Positions 7,485 through 61,840 of a stretch of DNA of 64,000 nt are shown piece by piece. The DNA comes from Moraxella sp. K1664. Its GTDB lineage: Bacteria > Pseudomonadota > Gammaproteobacteria > Pseudomonadales > Moraxellaceae. The translations under genes were made by a program, and so were the position numbers. Below the pieces are notes generated by a model. The model had not been told where the DNA came from. It saw only the letters and a list, made by a program, of their open reading frames with translations, and ran no database searches. Location: contig NZ_CP155576.1 in assembly GCF_039693965.1 (NCBI RefSeq), forward strand, positions 310,001 to 374,000. The letters run 5' to 3'. The number at the start of each line of letters is the position of its first letter. The stretch's first letter is position 1.

Positions 7485-8315
7485 TTAAAGCTCATCAATG
7501 GCTTGGCGTAATTCGCCCATTTTTGCCAAAATTTGACGAATGGCAAGCTCCAATTTATCTTTATCATCACCCACATCAGCAAAATGACGCACAAGCTCAC
7601 TGCCAACAATTACCCCATCTGCACATGTCGCCACTGCTTTGGCACTCTTGCCATCTCGTATGCCAAAACCTACGCACACAGGCAGGTCAGTGTCCGCCTT
7701 AATCGCCCTAACCTGCTTGCCCACATCGTCAATATCTGGTGCGTTTGAGCCTGTTACACCTTTGACTGACACATAATAGATAAATCCTGAACCATGTTCT
7801 AGCACCGCTTTTCGGCGTGTCAGCTCGGTGGTCGGAGCCAGCAAAAAGATTTGGTTCATGCCATGCTCGGTTAGAGCTTTGGTAAAATCACCTGTTTCAT
7901 TATTTACCACTTCATTGGGCGGTAAATCCACCATCAATAGACCGTCCACGCCATTGGCTTGGCACAGTTTTAAAAATTCGCCATAGCCGATAATTTCAAT
8001 GGGATTTAAGTAGCCCATAAGTAGCACAGGCGTTGTGGTGTTGGTTTTACGAAACTGTCCCACCATTTCAATCGCCCCGCGTGTACTTGTACCGCCCACC
8101 AACGCTCGCTCGCCAGCTAGGGCAATGGTTTGACCGTCCGCCATGGGGTCGGAAAACGGCAAGCCAATCTCAATCACGTCCGCCCCATGAGCGACAAGGC
8201 GGTGCATCAAGTCCACCGTAACGCTTGGGGTCGGGTCGCCTGCCATGATATAGGGGATTAGGGCTTTTTTGTTTTGCTGTTTTAGGGTAGCAAAGGTTTT
8301 GGAAATTCGGGTCAT
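7485..8315 (-). CDS. trpA: Tryptophan synthase alpha subunit
   Basis: 276 residues. The catalytic Glu49 and Asp60 are both present (VIEIGLPFSDPMADG), as are the phosphate-binding GFGIRDG and VIVGSELV loops. It cleaves indole-3-glycerol phosphate to indole for TrpB. In most relatives trpB lies immediately upstream; here about 3 kb of accessory genes separate them. The first 54 bases of the gene are also present as an orphan copy at 9074-9127. Confidence 0.97.
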   Translation of the reverse strand: MTRISKTFATLKQQNKKALIPYIMAGDPTPSVTVDLMHRLVAHGADVIEIGLPFSDPMADGQTIALAGERALVGGTSTRGAIEMVGQFRKTNTTTPVLLMGYLNPIEIIGYGEFLKLCQANGVDGLLMVDLPPNEVVNNETGDFTKALTEHGMNQIFLLAPTTELTRRKAVLEHGSGFIYYVSVKGVTGSNAPDIDDVGKQVRAIKADTDLPVCVGFGIRDGKSAKAVATCADGVIVGSELVRHFADVGDDKDKLELAIRQILAKMGELRQAIDEL

Positions 8316-8362: not shown

Positions 8363-8989
8363 TTATAACCCATTTTGAGCCAATTCAATATTCATCACCA
8401 CTTCGGCTTTGTCTTTAAAAGTGATACGAATTGGATTAGTCTCTGGCTCTAAATCTTTTAATTGCTTATAGGTTGTTTTATTGATGTCCAATGTTTTGGA
8501 AATTACACAAACATCATCATACTCTTCAAAACATTTATCAGGATTTTGTACATCAAAAAACTTAATACTATAATGTTCTCCTTTATAATTACTAAATCTG
8601 AGTTTATAGTCATTGGTTACCATTGTTTGACTGTTCTCAAACACGCCGTGATAAGCTCTTTTATAAAAACCAACACCATATGAAATGACTGTATAACCAA
8701 TAAAGAAAAAAGCAAAAATAACCCTTAATCCATTTATTGACTCTCTTTTATTTTTGAAATTTTCATTATTTTCCATATCTATTTTCACATATTTATACAT
8801 AATAAACACTATAAAATTAAAAGAAAAGGGTAAAATAATATTGTTTAATATTGCAATATATCCTTCAGAAATATTTAAAGTATTTACAATAAAAAAATAT
8901 CCAAACATTAAAATAAAACACACACCTAGCAAAATATCAAATTTTGATAGTTTTTTAAAAAATTCTCTGTCTGTGTTATTTTCGCTCAT
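8363..8989 (-). CDS. Unrecognised membrane protein, member Y of a four-copy family
   Basis: 208 residues and very AT-rich. Two or more pairs of membrane helices (LLGVCFILMFGYFFIV, IILPFSFNFIVFIMY, VIFAFFFIGYTVISYG) are followed by a soluble tail. Motifs shared with the genes at 9552, 16042 and 16597 are an N-terminal ISEGYIAIL, then FENSQTMVTNDYKL, KTTYKQLK and ITFKDKAEVVMNIEL. I do not recognise a known family. It begins one base after the stop of a NADAR gene remnant and lies directly before trpA. Alternating sequence divergence and repeated acquisition at one locus suggest an allelic accessory or immunity-type role, which is inference. Confidence 0.7.
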   Translation of the reverse strand: MSENNTDREFFKKLSKFDILLGVCFILMFGYFFIVNTLNISEGYIAILNNIILPFSFNFIVFIMYKYVKIDMENNENFKNKRESINGLRVIFAFFFIGYTVISYGVGFYKRAYHGVFENSQTMVTNDYKLRFSNYKGEHYSIKFFDVQNPDKCFEEYDDVCVISKTLDINKTTYKQLKDLEPETNPIRITFKDKAEVVMNIELAQNGL

Positions 8990-8990
8990 T

Positions 8991-9059
8991 TTATTTCTCT
9001 AACAATAATCTATCACGCACCACCATTAACGCAAATCCCAATAAATTTAAGCCTTGCCA
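8991..9059 (-). pseudogene. Remnant of the 3' end of a NADAR gene
   Basis: Forty-one bases (9019-9059) are identical to 10195-10235 inside the intact NADAR gene. The frame reads WQGLNLLGFALMVVRDRLL and ends at a TAA one base before gene Y. The rest of the gene is absent. This is a recombination scar, not a functional gene. Confidence 0.85.
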
Positions 9060-9073
9060 ATTTAAGGGGTTAT

Positions 9074-9127
9074 GGCTTTTTTGTTTTGCTGTTTTAGGGT
9101 AGCAAAGGTTTTGGAAATTCGGGTCAT
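9074..9127 (-). pseudogene. Orphan duplicate of the trpA 5' end
   Basis: Fifty-four bases are identical to 8262-8315, the start of trpA, encoding MTRISKTFATLKQQNKKA, then a quick stop. It marks where trpA once began directly downstream of the gene pair at 9211-10145. See the finding on cassette stacking. Confidence 0.9.
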
Positions 9128-9210
9128 AGGTTTACTCACAAATAATAAATAAGTTGTTAAATTTAGTTTAACACAGTAAAGTAAAATTTGGTTGATAATG
9201 ATTAAAATGG

Positions 9211-9555
9211 CTATTTTACAATCTCAATGCCCACCAATAAAGCACTTTCTATACTGACAAAAAATCCCACATAAAAAGCAATTGGCAAATACAGAAATAT
9301 TATCAATAAACTCATAAAAATCGCAGATGATTTATTCATCATCTTAGCAAATGATTGATATAGATAAATCAGCATAATGCCAAGAGCTATCAATAATCCT
9401 GCCGTCATCAATAACGCTAAGACATCAAGCCATATCGTCTCTTTGCCATAATATATCGCCACCAATCCCATGATATAGCTTAGGGTAAATACCCACCATA
9501 AAGGGGCAGATATGGCAATCATCATCAATGGCAAACGCATTGGCTTGATTGTCAT
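9211..9555 (-). CDS. Small membrane protein of unknown function
   Basis: 114 residues, almost wholly hydrophobic, with about three to four membrane helices (LMMIAISAPLWWVFTLSYIM, LALLMTAGLLIALGIMLIYL, IFMSLLIIFLYLPIAFYV). Its ATG overlaps the stop of the upstream family member by four bases, so the two are translationally coupled and probably work together. No recognised domain was seen. It lacks the soluble tail of its neighbour, so it is not simply another copy. Confidence 0.6.
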   Translation of the reverse strand: MTIKPMRLPLMMIAISAPLWWVFTLSYIMGLVAIYYGKETIWLDVLALLMTAGLLIALGIMLIYLYQSFAKMMNKSSAIFMSLLIIFLYLPIAFYVGFFVSIESALLVGIEIVK

Positions 9556-10145
9556 GATTGAACCTGCAATTTCATCAATATCCTTGCCTTTGGTTTAAAG
9601 GTTAATTGCAATGGATTGTCTTTATTTGATGAATTTAAATGTTGTAAATCATCATAAGTCTTGCCGTTAATTCTTAATTTATAAGCATAACGGCATTTTT
9701 GGTATTTAGGATTACAAGAATCAGGGTTGTTTTTATCATCAAAAACCAAATAATAAATCTTTTCGCCACGATAAAGTTCATAATAAAAACGATAACTATC
9801 GCTTATCACGGTTTGATGATTTTCAAAAAGTGGATAATAAATATCATCCGTCAAATCAGCAAACAACATCAAAAATATTACAGGACACGCCAATACCGCC
9901 AATAAATCTTTAAAATCTTCCCATAATGTCTCATTGCCTTTTTTAAGCTGTGTCAATGAAAAATAAGCCCCAGCTGGCAATAGAATAAGCATTATCAGAC
10001 TGGTTGACATTCTGGATAAAACACCCCAATAGCCTTCTTGCACGCCCACATATGACCCGCCAAGCATGGCATACATTCCAAGTCCAAAGAATGCAAAAAA
10101 TAAAATGGTCAAAATCTTTGGGACGGGTTTATTTTCTTCGGTCAT
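9552..10145 (-). CDS. Unrecognised membrane protein, member X of a four-copy family
   Basis: 197 residues. Several membrane helices (ILTILFFAFFGLGMYAML, SLIMLILLPAGAYFSL, LLAVLACPVIFLMLF) precede a soluble tail. The family marks are VQEGYWGVL, LFENHQTVISDSYRF, IYYLVFDDKNNPDSC, GKTYDDLQ and LTFKPKARILMKLQV. The tail has two Cys (NPDSC, YQKC) that member Y shares in position. It is coupled to the small membrane gene downstream and follows the NADAR gene. Function unknown. Confidence 0.7.
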   Translation of the reverse strand: MTEENKPVPKILTILFFAFFGLGMYAMLGGSYVGVQEGYWGVLSRMSTSLIMLILLPAGAYFSLTQLKKGNETLWEDFKDLLAVLACPVIFLMLFADLTDDIYYPLFENHQTVISDSYRFYYELYRGEKIYYLVFDDKNNPDSCNPKYQKCRYAYKLRINGKTYDDLQHLNSSNKDNPLQLTFKPKARILMKLQVQS

Positions 10146-10175
10146 GGTTGTGGTGTTTGGGTTTATTTTTAAAGT

Positions 10176-10724
10176 TTAAAGCAAGGTATCCCTTACCACC
10201 ATTAACGCAAATCCCAATAAATTTAAGCCTTGCCAGTTATTGGGATTATGAATTTTTTCATTATCTTTGGCAAGTCCCACACCCCATATCTTATCCACGG
10301 GACTGGCTTCTACCAAGATACGATTACCTGTATTTAATAAAAAATCTTTTAATGCAGGATTTTGACTAAATTTAGCAATATTGCCTTGCACCACAATATC
10401 AAAGCGGTGTTCATTCCAAATTTTTTCATCAAAATGACTGACTTGCCTACCCAAATCTTTGGCTTGTTTGGGGTGTTTGGACGTTATGATTTTATGAAAG
10501 GTGTCTATATCGCCAAACAATTTTGCCTTTTGAGCCATCATATAATGCTCTGCCGTTAGATAGGTGATATTATCCAGTGAAAAAGGAGCGTCATACCACT
10601 GACTAAAACAGGCATTGTCAATTTGTCCATTTGCCTTTGGGGCATGCCCCCAAAAGTAAAGATATTTTAATTTAGCGTTGGCTTGGTATTGATTGATAAG
10701 CCAGTTTAAATCATAATGTTTCAT
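10176..10724 (-). CDS. NADAR family protein (YbiA-like)
   Basis: 182 residues. NADAR signatures include FWGHAPKANGQ, FSQWYDAPFSLDN, TYLTAEHYMMAQKAKLFGD and ILVEASPVDKIWGVGLAKDN followed by WQGLNLLGFALM. YbiA-type members hydrolyse the N-glycosidic bond of riboflavin-pathway intermediates. Others remove ADP-ribose from nucleic acid bases and act as antitoxins or in phage conflict. Here it sits among toxin-antitoxin genes inside the split trp operon, so either role is possible. A second, truncated 3' end of the same gene lies at 8991-9059. Confidence 0.85.
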   Translation of the reverse strand: MKHYDLNWLINQYQANAKLKYLYFWGHAPKANGQIDNACFSQWYDAPFSLDNITYLTAEHYMMAQKAKLFGDIDTFHKIITSKHPKQAKDLGRQVSHFDEKIWNEHRFDIVVQGNIAKFSQNPALKDFLLNTGNRILVEASPVDKIWGVGLAKDNEKIHNPNNWQGLNLLGFALMVVRDTLL

Positions 10725-10729
10725 ATTGC

Positions 10730-11134
10730 TTAATCCAATTCTATCTCAAACCCAATTTTCTTTGCCAATTTTTTACCATTTTTATCAAAGGTTAGCCATT
10801 TGGCATCATCAAAATTTTGGGTTTGATAAGCAATGACACCGTCCGCAAAATCGCCACCGTTTTTTAAAAAGTATAGCCCAATTTCAAATAAAGATTTATC
10901 AAAAATTACATTTGGTTTTTGGGTTAATCTTTCAAGAAATTCCACAATCTCTGTGCGTGGGATTTTAATCTTTTTTCGCAAAACCCAATCAATTTCACAA
11001 AAAGTCATGATAGGCAAAACACAGGTAATTTGATTATTATCCAAATATTGATTGGCAATGGCGTTTTGGCGTGCGTCATCATTTAATAGATAACGCACCA
11101 AGACATTCGTATCCACTATAACAGTTTTAATCAT
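10730..11134 (-). CDS. PIN domain toxin (type II toxin-antitoxin)
   Basis: 134 residues of PIN fold: VDTNVLVRYLLNDD near the N-terminus with the first catalytic Asp, the middle Glu in MTFCEIDWVLRK, and GGDFADGVIAYQ plus WLTFDKNGKKLAK for the C-terminal acidic residues. PIN toxins cut RNA. Its start overlaps the end of the upstream antitoxin gene by 8 bases, the usual antitoxin-first layout. Located between trpB and the NADAR gene. Confidence 0.85.
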   Translation of the reverse strand: MIKTVIVDTNVLVRYLLNDDARQNAIANQYLDNNQITCVLPIMTFCEIDWVLRKKIKIPRTEIVEFLERLTQKPNVIFDKSLFEIGLYFLKNGGDFADGVIAYQTQNFDDAKWLTFDKNGKKLAKKIGFEIELD

Positions 11135-11378
11135 TTAAGCCCCGCATGGCTCGCCCATATGCCCCTTCTACAATTCCTTCTTCAATTTCTTCATCAGAAA
11201 GGCGGTGTGTTACATAATGGGCAAACATTCCGCTTAGACTGTCGTTTTCTACTACTTTATTAACAGGCTCTTTTGGCATACTTTCAATAATTTTGACATC
11301 ATTTTTTGAAAAATTATTTAATACTCTCAAAAAATTTTCCAAAACATTGTCATTAACTTCTATGGTATAAGTTCTCAT
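11127..11378 (-). CDS. Antitoxin of the PIN toxin module
   Basis: About 83 residues beginning MRTYTIEVNDNVLENFLRVL. Two ATGs are adjacent, and the second (11378) has the better spacing to the AGGAG site. The C-terminal acidic helix (LSDEEIEEGIVEGAYGRAM) is typical of antitoxins that wrap a PIN toxin. It lies six bases downstream of trpB, so trpB transcription probably feeds the module. The DNA-binding family is not clear. Confidence 0.75.
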   Translation of the reverse strand: MRTYTIEVNDNVLENFLRVLNNFSKNDVKIIESMPKEPVNKVVENDSLSGMFAHYVTHRLSDEEIEEGIVEGAYGRAMRGLND

Positions 11379-11386
11379 CATATCTC

Positions 11387-12589
11387 CTAAATCTCAATCC
11401 CGTCAATACTCATCACTGTATGCAAATCCTTATCGCCACGCCCTGACAGGTTGATGATGATAGATTTGTCCTTGCCGAGTGTTTTGGCAAGTTTTAGTCC
11501 ATAGGCGACTGCGTGCGAGCTTTCTAGGGCAGGGATAATGCCTTCGGTTTTGGTCAAAATACGAAAGGCTTCTAAGGCTTCATCGTCATTGATGACAGGG
11601 TAATTGACACGCCCAGCATCCTTTAAAAAGCTATGCTCGGGCCCCACACCAGGGTAGTCAAGCCCTGCCGATATGCTGTGCGTGTGCAAAATCTGACCGT
11701 CATCGTCCGCCATAAGGTAGGTGCGATTGCCGTGTAGCACGCCCACACGCCCTGCATTTAGGGGAGCGGAATGCTCGCCTGTGTCTATGCCGTGTCCGCC
11801 TGCTTCCACGCCATAAATCGCCACGTCATTGTCATTTAAAAACTCATAAAACAACCCCATGGCATTAGATCCACCGCCCACGCAAGCGACCAGTGCGTCA
11901 GGATTTTTGCCTTCTTTTTCAAGGTGTTGCATTTTGGCTTCACGCCCAATAATCGCCTGAAAATCACGCACCAGTACAGGATAAGGGTGCGGGCCTGCCA
12001 CCGTGCCGATGACATAATAGGTGCTGTCCACGTTCGTTACCCAGTCTCGCATGGCTTCGTTCATCGCATCTTTTAGCGTGCGTGAGCCTGACGTTACCGC
12101 CACGACTTTCGCCCCCAAAAGTCGCATTCTATACACATTCATTTTTTGGCGTTCTACATCGTCCGCCCCCATATAGACCACGCATTCTAAGCTTAAGCGG
12201 GCAGCGATTGTTGCCGTTGCCACGCCATGCTGACCTGCCCCTGTCTCGGCGATGATACGTTTTTTGCCGACCATTTTGGCAAGTAGGGCTTGTCCGATTG
12301 TGTTATTGACTTTGTGAGCCCCTGTGTGGTTTAGGTCTTCTCGTTTTAGGTAGATTTTGGCTCCGCCTGTCTCGTCTGTTAAGCGTTTGGCAAAATAAAG
12401 CGGTGTGGGGCGACCGACATAATTGACCAAATCATCATGAAACTCCGCCCAAAATTCAGGGTTATTTTTGACGGATAAATAAATGCGTTCTAGCTCTTCT
12501 AACGCACTCATCAAGGTTTCGGACACAAAACGTCCGCCATGAATGCCAAAATGACCTGTGGCGTTGGGGTATTGGGTAAAGTCTGTCAT
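11387..12589 (-). CDS. trpB: Tryptophan synthase beta subunit
   Basis: 400 residues, full length. The PLP lysine lies in [15 protein letters not shown] and the phosphate loop in [12 protein letters not shown]. The substrate loop [11 protein letters not shown] is intact. It joins indole and serine to make tryptophan in a complex with TrpA. The gene is complete, although accessory genes separate it from both trpA and trpF. Confidence 0.97.
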
Positions 12590-12910
12590 AAGTTTTTGCC
12601 TTTTAAATTAAATTTTTACCAAATCACATCAATAGGAAATGCGTTTATTTCATCATCACAGCTAATTAAAATCAACTGTTCAATTTAAGCTTGAGCAACC
12701 AACATTCTATCAAATGGGTCTGCATGATTTAATGCGTATTCGCCTGATAATTTGGCGTGTCGCCAATTTACCGATAAAGGTTTAAAATCAGCGTTAATCA
12801 TTAAAGTTTCAAAATTTTCTAATAAACTTCCTGCAAAACTAGGTTTTCCGTTCGCCCTTGTATCAACCCAACACCAAACCTAGATTATCTGCTAGAATGT
12901 TGTTGGGTTA

Positions 12911-13055
12911 TACAAGCAAAGAGAACACGGGTTCGCCCTTAGTGTCTTAACACTGGTGCTCAGATGGTGTCCTTTGCTTGTCATCTTAACTCTGAATGGT
13001 ATCTAAGTGCGTTTATTAAAACAGACACTGCATAAACAAGGCAAGAGACAGATGA
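12911..13055 (+). ncRNA. Predicted bridge RNA of the IS110 element
   Basis: Non-coding left end with two stem-loops. Loop 1: outer stem ACAAGCAAAG (12912-12921) with CTTTGCTTGT (12972-12981), inner hairpin AGTGT-CTTA-ACACT, with GTTCGCCCT (12931-12939) on one side and GCTCAG (12958-12963) on the other. These match the left target and the complement of the right target CTGAGC. Loop 2: stem CATCT/AGATG and CTCT/AGAG, with ATGGTATCT (12996-13004) identical to the right end of the element, and ACAAG (13036-13040) complementary to the left junction CTTGT. This is the layout of target- and donor-binding loops. The transcript itself is inferred. Confidence 0.75.
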
Positions 13056-14035
13056 TACACTATATTGGCATAGACATCAGCAAAGCAAAGTTTGATGTTG
13101 CATTTATAAACCCAAGCACAAATAAAGTAAAAACCAAGGTTTTTAACAACAACAAAGCAGGCTTTGATTTACTGCTTGCTTGGTTAAAAACCAATGTCAG
13201 CAATCATCTTGATGAGCTACACATCATCCTAGAAGCAACAGGGGTTTATCATGAACACCTAAGTGAGTTTCTTGATGATAATAATATCAAGCAAAGCATT
13301 GTCAATCCTAACTATGTCCGCAAATTTGCAGACAGTTTGGGGGTAATCCATAAAACTGATAAAAAAGACAGCATTATTTTATCAAGGTATGGTTATAGCC
13401 ACAAGCCTGAGGTTTGGGTAGCACCTAGCATTGAAGCCAAACAGCTAAAAGCTCTATTGGCTCGCTTAGAAGCACTCAAAGAAGATTTGCAACGAGAGCA
13501 AAACCGACAAGAGTTGCTCTTATCACCCAATCTGCCCGATTTGGTTAAAGCATCCATGCAAACAGTCATCAGTGTCCTTCAAGAGGAAATTGCCAAACTC
13601 ACCAAAGACATTGATGACTTTGTTGACAAACAACCAAGTTTAAAGCAAGACAAAACCTTACTTGAAACCATTGACGGTATTGGTTCTGTTATTGCCAAAG
13701 AAGTGGTATGCTTAATACATACCAAACAATTTAAAAAAGCCTCACAGATGGCTTCGTTTTTAGGCTTAATACCCAAACAAAGACAGTCAGGTGTCTTTAA
13801 GGGAGCAACCAAACTGTCCAAACAAGGGCAAGTCTCTTTGCGTGCTAAGCTGTATATGTCTGCAATGAGTGCCATTCGTTATAATAGCACCATTAAGGCA
13901 TTTTATGAACGATTACAACAAAACGGTAAAACCAAAATGCAAGCCTTATGTGCTTGTATGCGTAAATTGGTACATATCTGTTTTGGTGTTATCAAAACCC
14001 AAACATCCTTTGAGCAACAAGTATCTTTAAGTTAG
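13052..14035 (+). CDS. IS110-family transposase (DEDD recombinase)
   Basis: About 327 residues from ATG 13052; an upstream ATG at 13007 lies inside the predicted bridge RNA and is less likely. The N-terminal RuvC-like DEDD domain has YIGIDISKAKFDV and the Glu in IILEATGVYHEHL. The Asp pair lies near KTDKKDSIIL. A middle coiled-coil (residues about 125-195) is followed by the C-terminal Tnp domain with ETIDGIGSVIAKEVV and the SFLGLIPKQRQSG motif plus conserved Ser. It moves the element guided by a bridge RNA. Appears intact. Confidence 0.93.
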   Translation: MIHYIGIDISKAKFDVAFINPSTNKVKTKVFNNNKAGFDLLLAWLKTNVSNHLDELHIILEATGVYHEHLSEFLDDNNIKQSIVNPNYVRKFADSLGVIHKTDKKDSIILSRYGYSHKPEVWVAPSIEAKQLKALLARLEALKEDLQREQNRQELLLSPNLPDLVKASMQTVISVLQEEIAKLTKDIDDFVDKQPSLKQDKTLLETIDGIGSVIAKEVVCLIHTKQFKKASQMASFLGLIPKQRQSGVFKGATKLSKQGQVSLRAKLYMSAMSAIRYNSTIKAFYERLQQNGKTKMQALCACMRKLVHICFGVIKTQTSFEQQVSLS

Positions 14036-14371
14036 TTTGTAAGATACTAGATACCAGATACTTAAAAAACCATTGACTTAGGTGGGGTATCATGGTATCT
14101 GAGCTATGCCTGCGGGTGGCGGAAAACCGTTATGGTTCGACAAGCTCACCACGAACGGTTTTCCTTAATTCAGGGTTTTGCAGGAAGTCTAATATTTTTT
14201 GAGCTTTGCCTAATTTGCCTTTTCGGTGTTTGGTCGCCATTTCCCAAACACTTGCCGAACTGACATAAATTTGATTATCATCATTGGTTAAAATATCAAT
14301 GGCTGTTTTGGATAATTTTTCAGGTTCGGTATAATACCACAGTAAAATATGGGTATCTAACAAATATCGCT

Positions 14372-14608
14372 TTACCATTTTTCCAATTCGTCCTTATCCA
14401 AAGGCTCATAAAAAGCAGGGTCAGCTTTATAATCAGATAATCTACCTAATTGTTGTTGGCGTTTGCTGATTTTTGCTTTTGGCTGTTCATGGATTGAAAA
14501 TGGCTCGTCCAAAAATACCACCATAACTTGACTGGGTTTATCAAATGGCGGTAATTCATTTAATGAAATTTTACCGCCTTGATAAGTGCCACTAATTGTA
14601 TAATGCAT
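14372..14608 (-). CDS. Antitoxin of the split PIN toxin
   Basis: 78 residues: MHYTISGTYQGGKISL, then a Pro/Lys-rich stretch and an acidic tail (DPAFYEPLDKDELEKW). It overlaps the toxin start by 7 bases, the usual arrangement. AGGAAAA gives a good ribosome site. The partner toxin is broken, so the antitoxin is now an orphan. The fold family is not certain. Confidence 0.7.
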   Translation of the reverse strand: MHYTISGTYQGGKISLNELPPFDKPSQVMVVFLDEPFSIHEQPKAKISKRQQQLGRLSDYKADPAFYEPLDKDELEKW

Positions 14609-15803: not shown

Positions 15804-16045
15804 CAGTCAAGCTCCACCCAACGGTTCTTACTGGCAATTGGCTCAACATCATCTATTTCAATATCCGCAACATCGACACCGTCATACATCATCGCCCATT
15901 CATATAGTGTCATGTTATCATCTGGTTCTTTTTTACCTTGAATGGCGTGGGCAATGATTTTACCATTATCAGCAAAATCAATTTGTCTGCCTTGAATCAT
16001 GGCTTGTTGGACGATTGTGGGTAATGTGCTAATTTCTATAATCAT
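15803..16045 (-). CDS. Antitoxin of FitB/VapC-like module
   Basis: 80 residues: a short beta/helix start (MIIEISTLPTIVQQAM) resembling Phd/YefM-type antitoxins, then an acidic C-terminus with EWAMMYDGVDVADIEIDDVEP. Its ATG overlaps the stop of the family member at 16042 by four bases, so the antitoxin is translationally linked to that upstream gene as well as to its toxin. Confidence 0.75.
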   Translation of the reverse strand: MIIEISTLPTIVQQAMIQGRQIDFADNGKIIAHAIQGKKEPDDNMTLYEWAMMYDGVDVADIEIDDVEPIASKNRWVELD

Positions 16046-16600
16046 AGCTTTCCTTTTGGTAAAACTTGCAAATCATATAAAATCCGAGCCTTATCTTTAT
16101 AAGTAATGACCAATGTGTCATTGGATTTTATCTTTAACTTATCATAAGTGCTTTTATTGATTCTTACAATTTTAACATCATCTACGCCTTTTTTGTCGTC
16201 AAAACGCAGATAGTATTCATATCTCCCACGATTCTCTCTTTTTGTTAGGTCATATATGTCCGTTGTGGCAGTTTGTTTATGTTCAAATAATATATAATAC
16301 CCGTTATCCGAAGCATAATACAATGTCATTAAAAACATAACAGGCAAAGATAATGCCATGAAAAGATTTGAGAAAAATCCCCACCAATCATCATAATGTT
16401 TTGGTTTTATCTTTTTAATGGCAACAAAGCCAAAAATGCCAAATATCAAAAGACTCACAAACAGCATATTAAGCGTTGTGATTACCGCCCAAGTCCCTTC
16501 GTGTAAATCAAACCCACCGTCAAAAAAATAGAAAAAATAGCGACGCCATTACACAATAGACAATAAGAATGGCAAGTGCCAAGGGACAGCTTATTTTCAT
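16042..16600 (-). pseudogene. Member Z1 of the four-copy membrane family, frameshifted
   Basis: An ATG at 16600 overlaps the upstream stop (ATGA) and opens MKISCPLALAILIVYCVMAS, but the frame ends at TGA after an A7 tract (16522-16528). Dropping one base of that tract gives FFDGGFDLHEGTWAVITTL and continues into the rest of the gene. The remainder matches the family: LFEHKQTATTDIYDL, YYLRFDDKKG, INKSTYDKLK and TYKDKARILYDLQV. It is a decayed or phase-variable copy, or a homopolymer sequencing error. Confidence 0.75.
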
Positions 16601-17160
16601 GGAGCTTTATCATGTATGGTTAGTTGATATAAAATCTCTGCCTTTTCTTGATAAGTTAGGGTTAATGTGGCGTTGTCTTTTATTTTTAACGTATGATATG
16701 TTTTTGGGTTGATTTTAACACATTTTTTATCATCAAAATACAGATAATAATCATAAACACCTGCTCGTTTTTGTTGTTCAAAACGTTTTAGGTAATATTC
16801 ATTGGTTGTTGTGGTTGCCTTTTTCTCAAAAATGGCATAATACAAAGGCTTAACGACAAATTGACCCATAAATAACGTGCCAAAAAATACCGCCAAAGCA
16901 ATAATCACAAACCTGATATCAAGACTTACGCCTTTGTTTTTTGCTTGTATATAAGTATAAATAACGCTTGCATTGCCTGCAACACACATCGCAATGATAA
17001 ATGTACAACCAATCATCGTCTCGGCAACGGCAAAATACCCTTCATTCCAATCAAAAAATGGGCGAATAACAAAATAAGCACCGCCCAATAACAGACCAAA
17101 AAATCCCAAATACAGCCCCGATGATATTTGACCTGTTTGGTTGTCCGTGTCTTTTGTCAT
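16597..17160 (-). CDS. Unrecognised membrane protein, member Z2 of a four-copy family
   Basis: 187 residues if started at ATG 17160, which overlaps the trpF stop as ATGA. An upstream ATG at 17205 would lie inside trpF and is less likely. Membrane helices (LYLGFFGLLLGGAYFVI, MIGCTFIIAMCVAGNASV, VIIALAVFFGTLFMG) precede the tail. Family marks: FFDWNEGYFAVAETM, IFEKKATTTTNEYYL, YYLYFDDKKC, NPKTYHTLKI and LTYQEKAEILYQLTI. Unknown function; it is coupled to trpF. Confidence 0.72.
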   Translation of the reverse strand: MTKDTDNQTGQISSGLYLGFFGLLLGGAYFVIRPFFDWNEGYFAVAETMIGCTFIIAMCVAGNASVIYTYIQAKNKGVSLDIRFVIIALAVFFGTLFMGQFVVKPLYYAIFEKKATTTTNEYYLKRFEQQKRAGVYDYYLYFDDKKCVKINPKTYHTLKIKDNATLTLTYQEKAEILYQLTIHDKAP

Positions 17161-17828
17161 TGATGTTTCACGCTTTGTAAAAATTGCCCCATTTTCTCCC
17201 CACATTTTACGCCCTTTTGTTTTTCAATACCACCGCTGACATCAAGCCCATATAGGCGATGAGCAAGCTCATTTTGGACGATACTGGCGACATTATCGGG
17301 GGTCAGTCCGCCTGCTAGGATAATGGGCAGGGGTGAGTTTGTGGGGATTTTTGCCCAGTCAAAGGCTTGCCCTGTACCGCCAAATTTGTCAGGGTGATAA
17401 GCGTCCAGTAGCACGCCACTTGCCCCATATGCCTTTAACTCATTGATTTGGCTTAATAAACTCTCTGCCGTATCGCTCTCTTGCACACGGATTGCCTTGT
17501 ACCAGCGTTTTTTGGCAATATTAGCAAGCCTTTGGCAATCCTGCACCGTCTCATCGCCATGAAACTGCACGACATCAAACGGCACGGTATCTGTTAGGCG
17601 AATAAATTCATCGTCCGTCATATTAACCACCAGTGCCACCACGCTCACAAAGGGCGGTAAGCTCGCCACCAACGTGCGTGCCGTGTCAAAATCCACAAAT
17701 CTCGGGCTTGGCGGATAAAACACCAGTCCCACCGCATTCACGCCAAGAGCGGTAGCGGTCTGCAAATCGTCCGTGCGAGTAAATCCGCAGAATTTGACGG
17801 CTAATTGTTTGGGGGTTTGTTGTGTCAT
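17157..17828 (-). CDS. trpF: Phosphoribosylanthranilate isomerase
   Basis: 223 residues: the beta/alpha barrel has VKFCGFTRTDD with the catalytic Cys, VVALVVNM, VVQFHGDET, and the phosphate loops GVLLDAYHPDKFGG and ILAGGLTPDNV, ending with GLDVSGGIE. It performs the third step from anthranilate in tryptophan synthesis. It is the first gene of the minus-strand trp run, and its stop is coupled to the accessory gene that follows. Confidence 0.96.
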   Translation of the reverse strand: MTQQTPKQLAVKFCGFTRTDDLQTATALGVNAVGLVFYPPSPRFVDFDTARTLVASLPPFVSVVALVVNMTDDEFIRLTDTVPFDVVQFHGDETVQDCQRLANIAKKRWYKAIRVQESDTAESLLSQINELKAYGASGVLLDAYHPDKFGGTGQAFDWAKIPTNSPLPIILAGGLTPDNVASIVQNELAHRLYGLDVSGGIEKQKGVKCGEKMGQFLQSVKHQ

Positions 17829-26388: not shown

Positions 26389-26471
26389 TGGTGTGATGAA
26401 TGCCAAAAAACAGTCCATATATATGAACCGCACCCCAAAAGTTAGACACACTAACCTTTGGGGTGCTTTTT

Positions 26472-27008
26472 ATGGCAAAATACACAACCGACTTTAAACT
26501 GTCTGTGATTGGGTATTATCTTAATCATCATGGCTACAAACAAACCGCCAAACACTTTAATCTAAACCACACAACCGTAGAGCTATGGGTTAAACTCTAT
26601 CAAGCACATGGCATTGATGGCATAAAAAGACGACACACAAAGGCTGTCTATGACACAGATTTTAAGCTTAATGCCGTTCAAGCCATACAACAGGGCAAAT
26701 CGCTTACACAACTTGCCATAGAGCTTAATCTGCCACAACCTTCTTTACTGTCAACTTGGTTAAAGTCCTACCAAGCCTTTGGTATAATGGGACTAATACC
26801 CAAACCCAAAGGCAAAAAAGCAATGTCAAACAAACACAACGCTAATAAAACCAAATCAACTTGGAAAACCAAACAAGACCACGAAAAAAGTGTGGATGAT
26901 TTGCTTGATGAACTTGCCTATCTTAGAGCAGAGAATGACTATCTAAAAAAGCTAGATGCCTTAATTCGTCAAAAGGAACAATCAGTACAAACAAAGAACA
27001 AGTCCTGA
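26472..27008 (+). CDS. IS3-family OrfA (DNA-binding)
   Basis: About 178 residues from ATG 26472. It has two helix-turn-helix regions (LNHTTVELWVKLYQAHG and LNLPQPSLLSTWLKSY) and a C-terminal leucine-zipper-like helix (VDDLLDELAYLRAENDYL). OrfA binds the element ends. Near its end the slippery heptamer A-AAA-AAG lies at 26945-26951 in the correct frame for -1 slippage into OrfB. Confidence 0.92.
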   Translation: MAKYTTDFKLSVIGYYLNHHGYKQTAKHFNLNHTTVELWVKLYQAHGIDGIKRRHTKAVYDTDFKLNAVQAIQQGKSLTQLAIELNLPQPSLLSTWLKSYQAFGIMGLIPKPKGKKAMSNKHNANKTKSTWKTKQDHEKSVDDLLDELAYLRAENDYLKKLDALIRQKEQSVQTKNKS

Positions 27009-27049
27009 TCATCCAAGAATTAAGGCATAAGCACAAACTTGCTGACTTA

Positions 27050-27931
27050 TTGGCAGTGTCAAACTTGCCAAGAAGTGTGTTTTATTACCACATTCGTCAA
27101 AGTACAAAGCCTGACAAAGACCTTGACTTAAAAGAACACATTAACCACATCTACCACCAACACAAGGGCAGGTATGGTTATCGTAGAATCACATCAGAGC
27201 TTAACAATCAGCTTGCCCAAAAAGGCATGGTCATTAATCATAAACGAGTGCAACGACTGATGGCTAAACTTGGACTCAAAGCATTGGTTCGTCGTCAACG
27301 TAAGTTTAATACTTACAAAGGCACAATGGGCAAAGATACCATTCAGGACAATATACTCAAAAGAGACTTTAAAGCAGACAAACCCAATCAAAAGTGGGCA
27401 ACAGACATCACAGAGTTTAAAGTACAAGACAAGGCAAATGATGGCAGTGTCATTCAAAGAAAACTCTACCTATCGCCCATCATCGACTTGTTTAATGGTG
27501 AGATTGTCAGTTATACGATGAAGGACAGACCAACGTATGAGTTGGTCAAAGAGATGTTAAATGATGCCCTATCCAAGCTAAGCCAAGAAAAGATGGATGA
27601 CAAACCCATCATTCATTCAGACCAAGGCTGGCACTATCAAATGCACCAGTATCAACAAACCCTAAAAGAACAAGGCTTAACCCAAAGCATGTCAAGAAAA
27701 GGCAATTGTTTGGATAATGCTGTGATAGAGAGCTTCTTTGGTACGCTAAAACAAGAGATATTTTATGAGACAACCACATTTACATCAACAGATGAACTTA
27801 AACAAGTGATTGATGAGTACATACACTACTACAATCATGATAGAATAAAGAGCAAATTAAAAGGACTAAGTCCTGTTAAGTACAGAAACTTAGTCCAATT
27901 AGGGTTAATACAACCACTTGCAACAACCTAA
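27050..27931 (+). CDS. IS3-family OrfB transposase (made as OrfAB by -1 frameshift)
   Basis: 293 residues in the given frame. The frame is open back to the slippery site at 26945, so the real product is an OrfAB fusion. The integrase core has ATDITEFKV (first Asp), the second Asp in HSDQGWHYQ, and the Glu in NAVIESFFGTLKQE, followed by YNHDRIKSKLKGLSPVKYR. An HTH_21 region (KGRYGYRRITSELN) precedes it. The DDE residues are complete. Confidence 0.93.
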   Translation: MAVSNLPRSVFYYHIRQSTKPDKDLDLKEHINHIYHQHKGRYGYRRITSELNNQLAQKGMVINHKRVQRLMAKLGLKALVRRQRKFNTYKGTMGKDTIQDNILKRDFKADKPNQKWATDITEFKVQDKANDGSVIQRKLYLSPIIDLFNGEIVSYTMKDRPTYELVKEMLNDALSKLSQEKMDDKPIIHSDQGWHYQMHQYQQTLKEQGLTQSMSRKGNCLDNAVIESFFGTLKQEIFYETTTFTSTDELKQVIDEYIHYYNHDRIKSKLKGLSPVKYRNLVQLGLIQPLATT

Positions 27932-48585: not shown

Positions 48586-49467
48586 TTAGGTTGTTGCAAG
48601 TGGTTGTATTAACCCTAATTGGACTAAGTTTCTGTACTTAACAGGACTTAGTCCTTTTAATTTGCTCTTTATTCTATCATGATTGTAGTAGTGTATGTAC
48701 TCATCAATCACTTGTTTAAGTTCATCTGTTGATGTAAATGTGGTTGTCTCATAAAATATCTCTTGTTTTAGCGTACCAAAGAAGCTCTCTATCACAGCAT
48801 TATCCAAACAATTGCCTTTTCTTGACATGCTTTGGGTTAAGCCTTGTTCTTTTAGGGTTTGTTGATACTGGTGCATTTGATAGTGCCAGCCTTGGTCTGA
48901 ATGAATGATGGGTTTGTCATCCATCTTTTCTTGGCTTAGCTTGGATAGGGCATCATTTAACATCTCTTTGACCAACTCATACGTTGGTCTGTCCTTCATC
49001 GTATAACTGACAATCTCACCATTAAACAAGTCGATGATGGGCGATAGGTAGAGTTTTCTTTGAATGACACTGCCATCATTTGCCTTGTCTTGTACTTTAA
49101 ACTCTGTGATGTCTGTTGCCCACTTTTGATTGGGTTTGTCTGCTTTAAAGTCTCTTTTGAGTATATTGTCCTGAATGGTATCTTTGCCCATTGTGCCTTT
49201 GTAAGTATTAAACTTACGTTGACGACGAACCAATGCTTTGAGTCCAAGTTTAGCCATCAGTCGTTGCACTCGTTTATGATTAATGACCATGCCTTTTTGG
49301 GCAAGCTGATTGTTAAGCTCTGATGTGATTCTACGATAACCATACCTGCCCTTGTGTTGGTGGTAGATGTGGTTAATGTGTTCTTTTAAGTCAAGGTCTT
49401 TGTCAGGCTTTGTACTTTGACGAATGTGGTAATAAAACACACTTCTTGGCAAGTTTGACACTGCCAA
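48586..49467 (-). CDS. IS3-family OrfB transposase, copy 2
   Basis: 293 residues, identical in sequence to the copy at 27050. It is made by -1 slippage on A-AAA-AAG from OrfA. Catalytic Asp, Asp and Glu motifs are intact. Confidence 0.92.
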   Translation of the reverse strand: MAVSNLPRSVFYYHIRQSTKPDKDLDLKEHINHIYHQHKGRYGYRRITSELNNQLAQKGMVINHKRVQRLMAKLGLKALVRRQRKFNTYKGTMGKDTIQDNILKRDFKADKPNQKWATDITEFKVQDKANDGSVIQRKLYLSPIIDLFNGEIVSYTMKDRPTYELVKEMLNDALSKLSQEKMDDKPIIHSDQGWHYQMHQYQQTLKEQGLTQSMSRKGNCLDNAVIESFFGTLKQEIFYETTTFTSTDELKQVIDEYIHYYNHDRIKSKLKGLSPVKYRNLVQLGLIQPLATT

Positions 49468-49508
49468 TAAGTCAGCAAGTTTGTGCTTATGCCTTAATTC
49501 TTGGATGA

Positions 49509-50045
49509 TCAGGACTTGTTCTTTGTTTGTACTGATTGTTCCTTTTGACGAATTAAGGCATCTAGCTTTTTTAGATAGTCATTCTCTGCTCTAAGATAGG
49601 CAAGTTCATCAAGCAAATCATCCACACTTTTTTCGTGGTCTTGTTTGGTTTTCCAAGTTGATTTGGTTTTATTAGCGTTGTGTTTGTTTGACATTGCTTT
49701 TTTGCCTTTGGGTTTGGGTATTAGTCCCATTATACCAAAGGCTTGGTAGGACTTTAACCAAGTTGACAGTAAAGAAGGTTGTGGCAGATTAAGCTCTATG
49801 GCAAGTTGTGTAAGCGATTTGCCCTGTTGTATGGCTTGAACGGCATTAAGCTTAAAATCTGTGTCATAGACAGCCTTTGTGTGTCGTCTTTTTATGCCAT
49901 CAATGCCATGTGCTTGATAGAGTTTAACCCATAGCTCTACGGTTGTGTGGTTTAGATTAAAGTGTTTGGCGGTTTGTTTGTAGCCATGATGATTAAGATA
50001 ATACCCAATCACAGACAGTTTAAAGTCGGTTGTGTATTTTGCCAT
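49509..50045 (-). CDS. IS3-family OrfA, copy 2
   Basis: About 178 residues, identical to the copy at 26472. Helix-turn-helix motifs and the slippery site near the 3' end are intact. Confidence 0.92.
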   Translation of the reverse strand: MAKYTTDFKLSVIGYYLNHHGYKQTAKHFNLNHTTVELWVKLYQAHGIDGIKRRHTKAVYDTDFKLNAVQAIQQGKSLTQLAIELNLPQPSLLSTWLKSYQAFGIMGLIPKPKGKKAMSNKHNANKTKSTWKTKQDHEKSVDDLLDELAYLRAENDYLKKLDALIRQKEQSVQTKNKS

Positions 50046-50123
50046 AAAAAGCACCCCAAAGGTTAGTGTGTCTAACTTTTGGGGTGCGGTTCAATTTGAG
50101 CGATGTTTTCTTTACGCTAATTT

Positions 50124-59213: not shown

Positions 59214-60095
59214 TTAGGTTGTTGCAAGTGGTTGTATTAACCCTAATTGGACTAAGTTTCTGTACTTAACAGGACTTAGTCCTTTTAATTTGCTCTTTAT
59301 TCTATCATGATTGTAGTAGTGTATGTACTCATCAATCACTTGTTTAAGTTCATCTGTTGATGTAAATGTGGTTGTCTCATAAAATATCTCTTGTTTTAGC
59401 GTACCAAAGAAGCTCTCTATCACAGCATTATCCAAACAATTGCCTTTTCTTGACATGCTTTGGGTTAAGCCTTGTTCTTTTAGGGTTTGTTGATACTGGT
59501 GCATTTGATAGTGCCAGCCTTGGTCTGAATGAATGATGGGTTTGTCATCCATCTTTTCTTGGCTTAGCTTGGATAGGGCATCATTTAACATCTCTTTGAC
59601 CAACTCATACGTTGGTCTGTCCTTCATCGTATAACTGACAATCTCACCATTAAACAAGTCGATGATGGGCGATAGGTAGAGTTTTCTTTGAATGACACTG
59701 CCATCATTTGCCTTGTCTTGTACTTTAAACTCTGTGATGTCTGTTGCCCACTTTTGATTGGGTTTGTCTGCTTTAAAGTCTCTTTTGAGTATATTGTCCT
59801 GAATGGTATCTTTGCCCATTGTGCCTTTGTAAGTATTAAACTTACGTTGACGACGAACCAATGCTTTGAGTCCAAGTTTAGCCATCAGTCGTTGCACTCG
59901 TTTATGATTAATGACCATGCCTTTTTGGGCAAGCTGATTGTTAAGCTCTGATGTGATTCTACGATAACCATACCTGCCCTTGTGTTGGTGGTAGATGTGG
60001 TTAATGTGTTCTTTTAAGTCAAGGTCTTTGTCAGGCTTTGTACTTTGACGAATGTGGTAATAAAACACACTTCTTGGCAAGTTTGACACTGCCAA
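59214..60095 (-). CDS. IS3-family OrfB transposase, copy 3
   Basis: 293 residues, identical in sequence to the other two copies; made by -1 slippage from OrfA. Confidence 0.92.
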   Translation of the reverse strand: MAVSNLPRSVFYYHIRQSTKPDKDLDLKEHINHIYHQHKGRYGYRRITSELNNQLAQKGMVINHKRVQRLMAKLGLKALVRRQRKFNTYKGTMGKDTIQDNILKRDFKADKPNQKWATDITEFKVQDKANDGSVIQRKLYLSPIIDLFNGEIVSYTMKDRPTYELVKEMLNDALSKLSQEKMDDKPIIHSDQGWHYQMHQYQQTLKEQGLTQSMSRKGNCLDNAVIESFFGTLKQEIFYETTTFTSTDELKQVIDEYIHYYNHDRIKSKLKGLSPVKYRNLVQLGLIQPLATT

Positions 60096-60136
60096 TAAGT
60101 CAGCAAGTTTGTGCTTATGCCTTAATTCTTGGATGA

Positions 60137-60673
60137 TCAGGACTTGTTCTTTGTTTGTACTGATTGTTCCTTTTGACGAATTAAGGCATCTAGCTTTTTT
60201 AGATAGTCATTCTCTGCTCTAAGATAGGCAAGTTCATCAAGCAAATCATCCACACTTTTTTCGTGGTCTTGTTTGGTTTTCCAAGTTGATTTGGTTTTAT
60301 TAGCGTTGTGTTTGTTTGACATTGCTTTTTTGCCTTTGGGTTTGGGTATTAGTCCCATTATACCAAAGGCTTGGTAGGACTTTAACCAAGTTGACAGTAA
60401 AGAAGGTTGTGGCAGATTAAGCTCTATGGCAAGTTGTGTAAGCGATTTGCCCTGTTGTATGGCTTGAACGGCATTAAGCTTAAAATCTGTGTCATAGACA
60501 GCCTTTGTGTGTCGTCTTTTTATGCCATCAATGCCATGTGCTTGATAGAGTTTAACCCATAGCTCTACGGTTGTGTGGTTTAGATTAAAGTGTTTGGCGG
60601 TTTGTTTGTAGCCATGATGATTAAGATAATACCCAATCACAGACAGTTTAAAGTCGGTTGTGTATTTTGCCAT
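60137..60673 (-). CDS. IS3-family OrfA, copy 3
   Basis: About 178 residues, identical to the other copies. Confidence 0.92.
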   Translation of the reverse strand: MAKYTTDFKLSVIGYYLNHHGYKQTAKHFNLNHTTVELWVKLYQAHGIDGIKRRHTKAVYDTDFKLNAVQAIQQGKSLTQLAIELNLPQPSLLSTWLKSYQAFGIMGLIPKPKGKKAMSNKHNANKTKSTWKTKQDHEKSVDDLLDELAYLRAENDYLKKLDALIRQKEQSVQTKNKS

Positions 60674-61840
60674 AAAAAGCACCCCAAAGGTTAGTGTGTC
60701 TAACTTTTGGGGTGCGGTTCAGAATAGCCCTTTTTCTCTTGGCGAATATGCCCAAGTCCTGGGAATGGCAAGTGAGCCCCTGCAATCCAAGTTTTGTTTT
60801 TGGCAAGTTTTGGAAACATCGCCAATCGGCTGGCACGAGCTGATTTTGCATTCACATCAAACTCGGCTGCCACACTTGGTTCAGGCAGTTGCAAGGCGTG
60901 GTTGTGCAACAAATCGCCCCACACAAACAATTTTTCGCCTTTTGATGAGACTTCCACACTGCTATGACCTGGGGTATGCCCTGTGGTTGGCACGGATTTG
61001 AAATTTGGGATAATTTCATCGCCCAAATTATAATATTTCACACGCCCTGCCGCCGCATAAGGAGCAACCGCATCTCGTGTCTATTGGGCATATTTTTGGG
61101 TATGCTCTGGCATTTGGCTGATAGGCGTGTCTAACCAAAAGGCTTTTTCTTGATTGGCAATATAAACGGTTGCATTTGGAAATTCCATTTTGCCATTGCG
61201 AGTTACGCCACTAAAATGGTCAAAATGCAAATGCGTTGGAATAATGGTATCCACCTGTTCAGGGCGATAGCCTGATTTAATCAAACTTTCGGCTAATTTA
61301 CCCACTTTATCATCAAACACATCACCAGAACCTGCGTCAAGTAGCACCAAATTTTTGCCTGTGTTAATCAAATACCCCGTAACAGCCGTTTGTACGCCAC
61401 CATCTGGAAGCATTGGACGAAATTGCCCTGAAATCAACTCATCTAATTGTTTTTTGGTTAATTTGGTAAACTGTTGATAAACAGGTGTACCAATGGACAA
61501 ATAACCGTCATACAAAGCGGTAACTTCATAATCGCCAAGCATCATACGATAGTAGCCGTCCACTTGGGTGCGTTTTTGTGCTACGGCATTTTCTGTGGGT
61601 TGATAAACTGCGTGTGAATGCGAATGCGTACCGTGAGCCATTGCCACCGAGCTAAAAAGCGAGCCTGCAAGCAATAACGCCGTGCTGATTTTGGATAATG
61701 TTTTCATAAAAAACCTTATTAAAATAATGAATAATAGATAAAGCAAAATGCCCTATCCTGTGAAGTGAGCATATTGTAATGGCTTTTTAAATTTGTTAAA
61801 ATAGCAACAATAACAAAACACCTATGCCAAAACCGCACAA

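Follow-up and report, generated by a model that had tools for sequence, protein, structure and literature searches.

The gap between trpB and trpA in Moraxella sp. K1664 was examined within a stretch of 64,000 nucleotides (NZ_CP155576.1, positions 310,001 to 374,000; hereafter, the window), to which all coordinates refer unless another genome is named. Read on the minus strand from trpB toward trpA, this gap contains a NADAR gene, a membrane-protein gene (X), a small gene, a piece of the trpA 5' end, a piece of the NADAR 3' end, a second membrane-protein gene (Y) and trpA itself, and a PIN-domain gene with its putative antitoxin also lies inside the gap, on the trpB side of NADAR. No mobility genes were found among the genes of this slot. 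The features of the slot, together with two relatives of X located between trpF and SDR, are as follows.

7485..8315, minus strand: intact trpA (open reading frame, and blastp to trpA of 18 other Moraxella genomes); nucleotides 13-31 hold the tract shared with the scar
8363..8989, minus strand: gene Y, 208-amino acid membrane protein of the X family (alignments; M. lacunata Y is 53% identical)
8991..9073, minus strand: NADAR 3' scar, the last ~27 codons and the stop, immediately upstream of Y (sequence comparison, NADAR HMM)
9074..9127, minus strand: trpA 5' scar, 54 nt, codons 1-18, equal to the resident trpA start (sequence comparison)
9060..9090, minus strand: trpA5'/NADAR3' join, AAAAAAGCC followed by ATAA(T/C)CCC; same position in M. 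lacunata, 14/18 in-register identity
9211..9555, minus strand: small gene, 114-amino acid membrane protein (open reading frame)
9552..10145, minus strand: gene X, 197-amino acid membrane protein, 93-94% identical to X of M. caprae and M. lacunata
10140..10190, minus strand: NADAR/X boundary, a probable second short-homology join at GCTTTAAACTTTAAAAA, which is also present in the M. lacunata vapC-X spacer
10176..10724, minus strand: intact NADAR gene (PF08719, E 9e-57; TIGR02464, E 7.7e-51)
10730..11134, minus strand: PIN-domain (VapC-like) toxin gene (PF01850, E 7.6e-8)
11127..11381, minus strand: putative antitoxin of the PIN gene, assigned only by position; an 84% identical protein occupies the same place in another genome (G017)
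11387..12589, minus strand: trpB, the upstream core gene of the slot (genome comparison)
16042..16467, minus strand: X-family copy Z, trpF-SDR slot, with its N-terminal part in another frame beyond a break at seven consecutive T (alignments)
16597..17160, minus strand: X-family copy W, trpF-SDR slot (alignments)

The intact NADAR gene matches the whole PF08719 domain (positions 1-162 of 163) at 192.3 bits, with a curated cut-off of 35.1. The small gene and X overlap by ATGA. No relative of the small gene was detected at E<=0.01 in the other 21 Moraxella genomes; kinship with a 101-amino acid gene of M. oblonga was considered and rejected, given that the E value of 3.5e-4 was obtained only in a tiny database and a genus search did not recover the match.

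X, Y, W and Z belong to one membrane-protein family with a conserved C-terminal domain, as judged from alignments. X and Y are paralogues with 26% amino acid identity and 43-47% identity in DNA; the X protein is 92-93% identical across three Moraxella species, and Y is 53% identical between its two carriers. No Pfam or NCBIfam model scored above its curated cut-off for any of the four proteins, no PADLOC model matched X or Y, and PHROG yielded no convincing match for X, Y or W. The predicted structure of X consists of three long helices and a beta domain, and no PDB match at E<=0.001 was obtained with either the full X model (pLDDT 70.7) or the model of the W C-terminal domain (pLDDT 80.5). 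Naming X by its fold was attempted and abandoned: the top structural matches were mostly OB-type barrels, with the DUF2500 structure 3q6c at E 0.73, and this stays a hint. A role of the family as phage or plasmid cargo was also discarded, with no relative in viral contigs (in a single peptide-pattern scan), no relative of Y in plasmids and the lack of PHROG matches already mentioned. The frame break of the N-terminal part at the seven-T run (window 16440-16540) makes Z either a disrupted gene or one that may be read through by slippage.

In the SDR-trpB slot (12690-14608), an IS110-type transposase open reading frame (13007-14035) interrupts a PIN toxin gene and splits it into an N part at 14130-14378, behind an antitoxin-like gene, and a C part at ~12690-12830 that ends HADPFDRMLVAQA. 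A two-ORF IS3-type element is present three times with identical protein sequences (26463-27931, 48586-50054 and 59214-60682).

Two scars and the join between them

The sequence at 9074-9127 matches the first 54 nt of trpA (8262-8315, minus strand) without a single mismatch (54/54), and 9019-9059 is an exact 41-nt copy of 10195-10235 within NADAR. Both had been pointed out in the original prediction, along with the order NADAR-X-small-trpA5' followed by NADAR3'-Y-trpA, which the coordinates of all parts bear out. The likeness to NADAR extends beyond the 41 nt, spanning ~8991-9073 in frame to a stop of its own (NPLNWQGLNLLGFALMVVRDRLLLEK and stop), and this tail is found by the NADAR HMM unaided (E 1.4e-4). 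Because the longest exact direct repeat in random sequence was 15-18 nt (ten 64-kb order-1 Markov sequences), neither copy is due to chance. The NADAR scar terminates in DRLLLEK and intact NADAR in DTLL, so the scar is not a plain copy of the neighboring gene.

Where trpA gives way to NADAR, 14 of 18 positions match in register between trpA (...AAAAAAGCC, switch, CTAATCCC) and NADAR (...AAAAAATTC, switch, ATAATCCC); AAAAAA and TAATCCC flank the switch in register, and exactly at the switch point only 1-2 nt are identical. Identity of at least 14/18 is reached by 1.5e-5 of the possible joins across the trpA and NADAR stretches, and the observed join is the best short-homology site between them. 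M. lacunata carries the trpA/NADAR join at the same base. This placement suggests that donor DNA, once taken up, was joined through microhomology, since pairing of strands at the short homology would pick the observed site. The illegitimate joints of homology-facilitated illegitimate recombination (HFIR), for comparison, mostly contain 3-10 bp of microhomology (PMC3240628), and the trpA/NADAR join is of this kind. Homologues of dprA and comEC, both widespread genes, are encoded in the same genome, and natural transformation may have been the source of the short-homology join.

The two trpA starts bear traces of later exchange. The trpA 5' scar differs from its own trpA at 0 of 54 positions in the window and 6 of 54 in M. 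lacunata (89-100% identity). Between trpA -110 and +211, the window and M. lacunata are near-identical except for clustered mismatches at trpA nt 13-31 (8 mismatches in nt 1-54 vs 4 in the 267 flanking nt; Fisher p 1.1e-4), and this divergent tract of the window trpA equals the window's own scar, so that the two trpA copies most likely exchanged sequence. The NADAR scar also begins differently in the window species and M. lacunata, over its first ~20 nt (CCTTAAATTGG vs CAATAACTGG), which allows for two separate events at one site or for later replacement.

Alleles of the slot in related genomes

We compared 22 Moraxella genomes, one per species, and searched 299 genomes of the family for a NADAR-Y-trpA allele. 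The contents of the trpB-trpA slot across the genus comprise X, X+Y, NADAR+X+small+Y, NADAR+macro, NADAR+303aa, a PD-T4-4-like pair, an HNH gene or nothing, trpB and trpA being just 38-52 nt apart in four species. Among the genes carried in the slots are VapBC-like pairs, NADAR, macro-domain, DarT-macro, PD-T4-4-like pairs (two species) and an HNH gene. The PD-T4-4-like two-gene pairs lie between trpB and trpA in these two species (L039, 11573-13600; L043, 11788-13781), and in one genome the macro-domain gene behind NADAR is broken into two reading frames (L042, 12947-13558).

M. caprae carries a scar-free, single-cassette allele, trpB-vapBC-X-trpA, and M. lacunata carries trpB-vapBC-X-trpA5'/NADAR3'-Y-trpA; the spacer between X and the ATG differs at one of 24 nt between M. 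caprae and the M. lacunata scar. In a sister genus of the same family, two genomes have trpB-X'-trpA, one of them with a W-type gene between trpF and SDR. X is accompanied by neither NADAR nor the small gene in M. lacunata, M. caprae and the sister genus; the M. lacunata genome contains no NADAR gene apart from the scar tail and no small gene. The genus-wide NADAR search of the 22 genomes recovered four intact genes and three tails, every one of them between trpB and trpA, as expected if the donor allele had been of the form NADAR-cassette-trpA. A NADAR-Y-trpA allele itself was found in none of the 22 genus and 299 family genomes.

These comparisons modify the original prediction. Its core, that two cassette alleles were joined, holds, with scar-free X-trpA in M. 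caprae and X'-trpA in the two sister-genus genomes; the recombination need not have been allelic crossing-over of the ordinary kind, the join lying at short, imperfect homology. As single-cassette alleles, X-trpA exists, and the anticipated NADAR-Y-trpA is implied by the scar, from which alone the Y donor is known and which suggests its form. With one genome per species, M. caprae may have lost Y by deletion between trpA copies instead of being parental. The outcome that had been named as speaking against two alleles, a double scarred form as the only arrangement, did not occur across species, although M. lacunata shares the double form. The proposal that NADAR-X-small-trpA was one original allele does not stand, given that X occurs without NADAR and the small gene in M. 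lacunata, M. caprae and the sister genus. The motif GCTTTAAACTTTAAAAA is located at the NADAR/X boundary of the window and between vapC and X in M. lacunata, so NADAR looks as though it was added to X by another short join. Judged from sequence, at least three units make up the composite slot of the window.

The adjoining core genes were probably in part replaced as well, considering that trpF (17157-17828) and trpA (7485-8315) are only 70% and 80% similar to their M. lacunata counterparts vs 94% for accD and SDR.

Analogous scars are present in M. oblonga at another gene pair, SDR-RHH-PIN-trpB5'/SDR3'-vapBC-trpB, where the SDR tail match is better than all 500 shuffles. The trpB/SDR join shows no unusual homology with the alleles at hand (8/18, reached by 7% of random joins). 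The trpB-trpA slot of this species, NADAR-macro/NADAR3'-101aa-trpA, holds a further NADAR3' scar. DarT (PF14487, E 2.5e-38) and a macro-domain gene lie in its trpF-SDR slot (L033, 11719-13274), besides the NADAR-macro pair in the trpB-trpA slot.

Origin of the stacked arrangement

We consider it probable that the trpB-trpA gap is an integrase-free slot in which Y was stacked behind X through homology at one end of the donor DNA and a short-homology join at the other. The resident allele would have had cassette X directly upstream of trpA, and the donor DNA would have carried cassette Y between a NADAR gene end and trpA. One donor end would have recombined by homology within or beyond trpA, and the other would have been joined, through its NADAR 3' end, to codon 18 of the resident trpA at AAAAAA..C.TAATCCC. 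Y would thereby have been added behind X, leaving the 54-nt trpA start and the NADAR tail as scars; placement of NADAR before X and of the small gene behind X, and homogenization of the two trpA starts, would have followed.

A circular donor would lead to an identical product: NADAR3'-Y-trpA5' closed at the same short homology and inserted by a single crossover in trpA would leave a 54-nt duplication. In E. coli, linear DNA has been described to circularize and then undergo a single crossover (PMC3240628), and insertion with long target duplication is known for restriction-modification genes (Nobusato et al. 2000, cited in PMC3031569). The region from the Y 3' end through the Y-trpA spacer to trpA nt 211 is, however, common to the window species and M. 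lacunata, with an abrupt drop in identity beyond, which is the footprint of a linear donor but may stem from later exchange. On this evidence, the circular route appears unlikely.

Tandem duplication of a single NADAR3'-cassette-trpA5' unit, with the copies then diverging into X and Y, would account for the paralogy of these genes and for the order of the repeats. X and Y, however, share far less DNA identity than the trpA scars (43-47% vs 89-100%) and thus were already distinct genes long before the scar formed; furthermore, M. lacunata lacks a NADAR gene that could have been duplicated, X and Y have unlike flanks upstream, and a lone X-like gene precedes trpA in another genus. Such an origin is therefore very unlikely. 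A site-specific element carrying an att-like copy of the trpA 5' end would explain the 54-nt direct repeat around NADAR3'-Y but is hardly credible for a unit that encodes no integrase or recombinase and starts with the cut-off end of a gene whose intact counterparts occupy the same slot in other species, all the more so with the same scar topology at trpB/SDR in M. oblonga.

Relation to known systems and implications

The slot resembles the minimal mobile elements of Neisseria (Saunders and Snyder 2002), in which one pair of conserved genes encloses whole-gene cassettes that vary from genome to genome and lack mobility genes (PMC3898611). Different whole-gene cassettes between trpB and trpA, and a window cassette free of mobility genes, are what we observe here, in a comparison between species (one genome each) rather than between strains. 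By definition, such elements are incorporated through homologous recombination alone (PMC3898611), unlike the trpA/NADAR join at an imperfect 18-nt homology and the trpB/SDR join in M. oblonga; one short-homology end, stacked cassettes and scars of both flanking genes set the trpB-trpA slot apart, and stacking scars appear to be a new aspect of such elements. As in HFIR of S. pneumoniae, A. baylyi and P. stutzeri, single-step insertion would combine homology at one end with short homology at the other (PMC3240628), but in the laboratory the insertion usually comes with a deletion of about the same size, whereas the trpB-trpA locus, judging from its sequence, underwent mainly net addition. Long-target-duplication insertions likewise leave a direct repeat of target DNA on either side of the insert; here the insert additionally bears the end of the gene that lay upstream in the donor, and this end identifies the donor allele.

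NADAR ADP-ribosylhydrolases reverse guanine ADP-ribosylation and serve as DarT antitoxins (PMC11125620, PMC11833690). The window cassette encodes a clear NADAR like these enzymes, and no DarT lies beside it in the window. We found no prior publication on the trpB-trpA locus in the open-access literature.

More broadly, the trp cluster could be a multi-slot, integrase-free defense and toxin-antitoxin locus that grows by microhomology stacking, with gene-end leftovers acting as recombination sites that homogenize, exchange or delete cassettes and with X and Y as a new membrane immunity or conflict family kept as divergent alleles, a tentative picture that we regard as more doubtful than the stacking of Y behind X.

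Integrase-free turnover of chromosomal cassettes is usually inferred from presence and absence alone. The scars described here identify both parental alleles, locate the join at single-base resolution, and are seen again in other species and at a second gene pair, so that a transformable laboratory strain would allow a direct test of how defense and toxin-antitoxin genes accumulate in a core operon. A further implication is an undescribed family of membrane proteins that is linked to this locus in two genera. A core metabolic operon thus holds a readable log of swapped toxin-antitoxin and defense genes.
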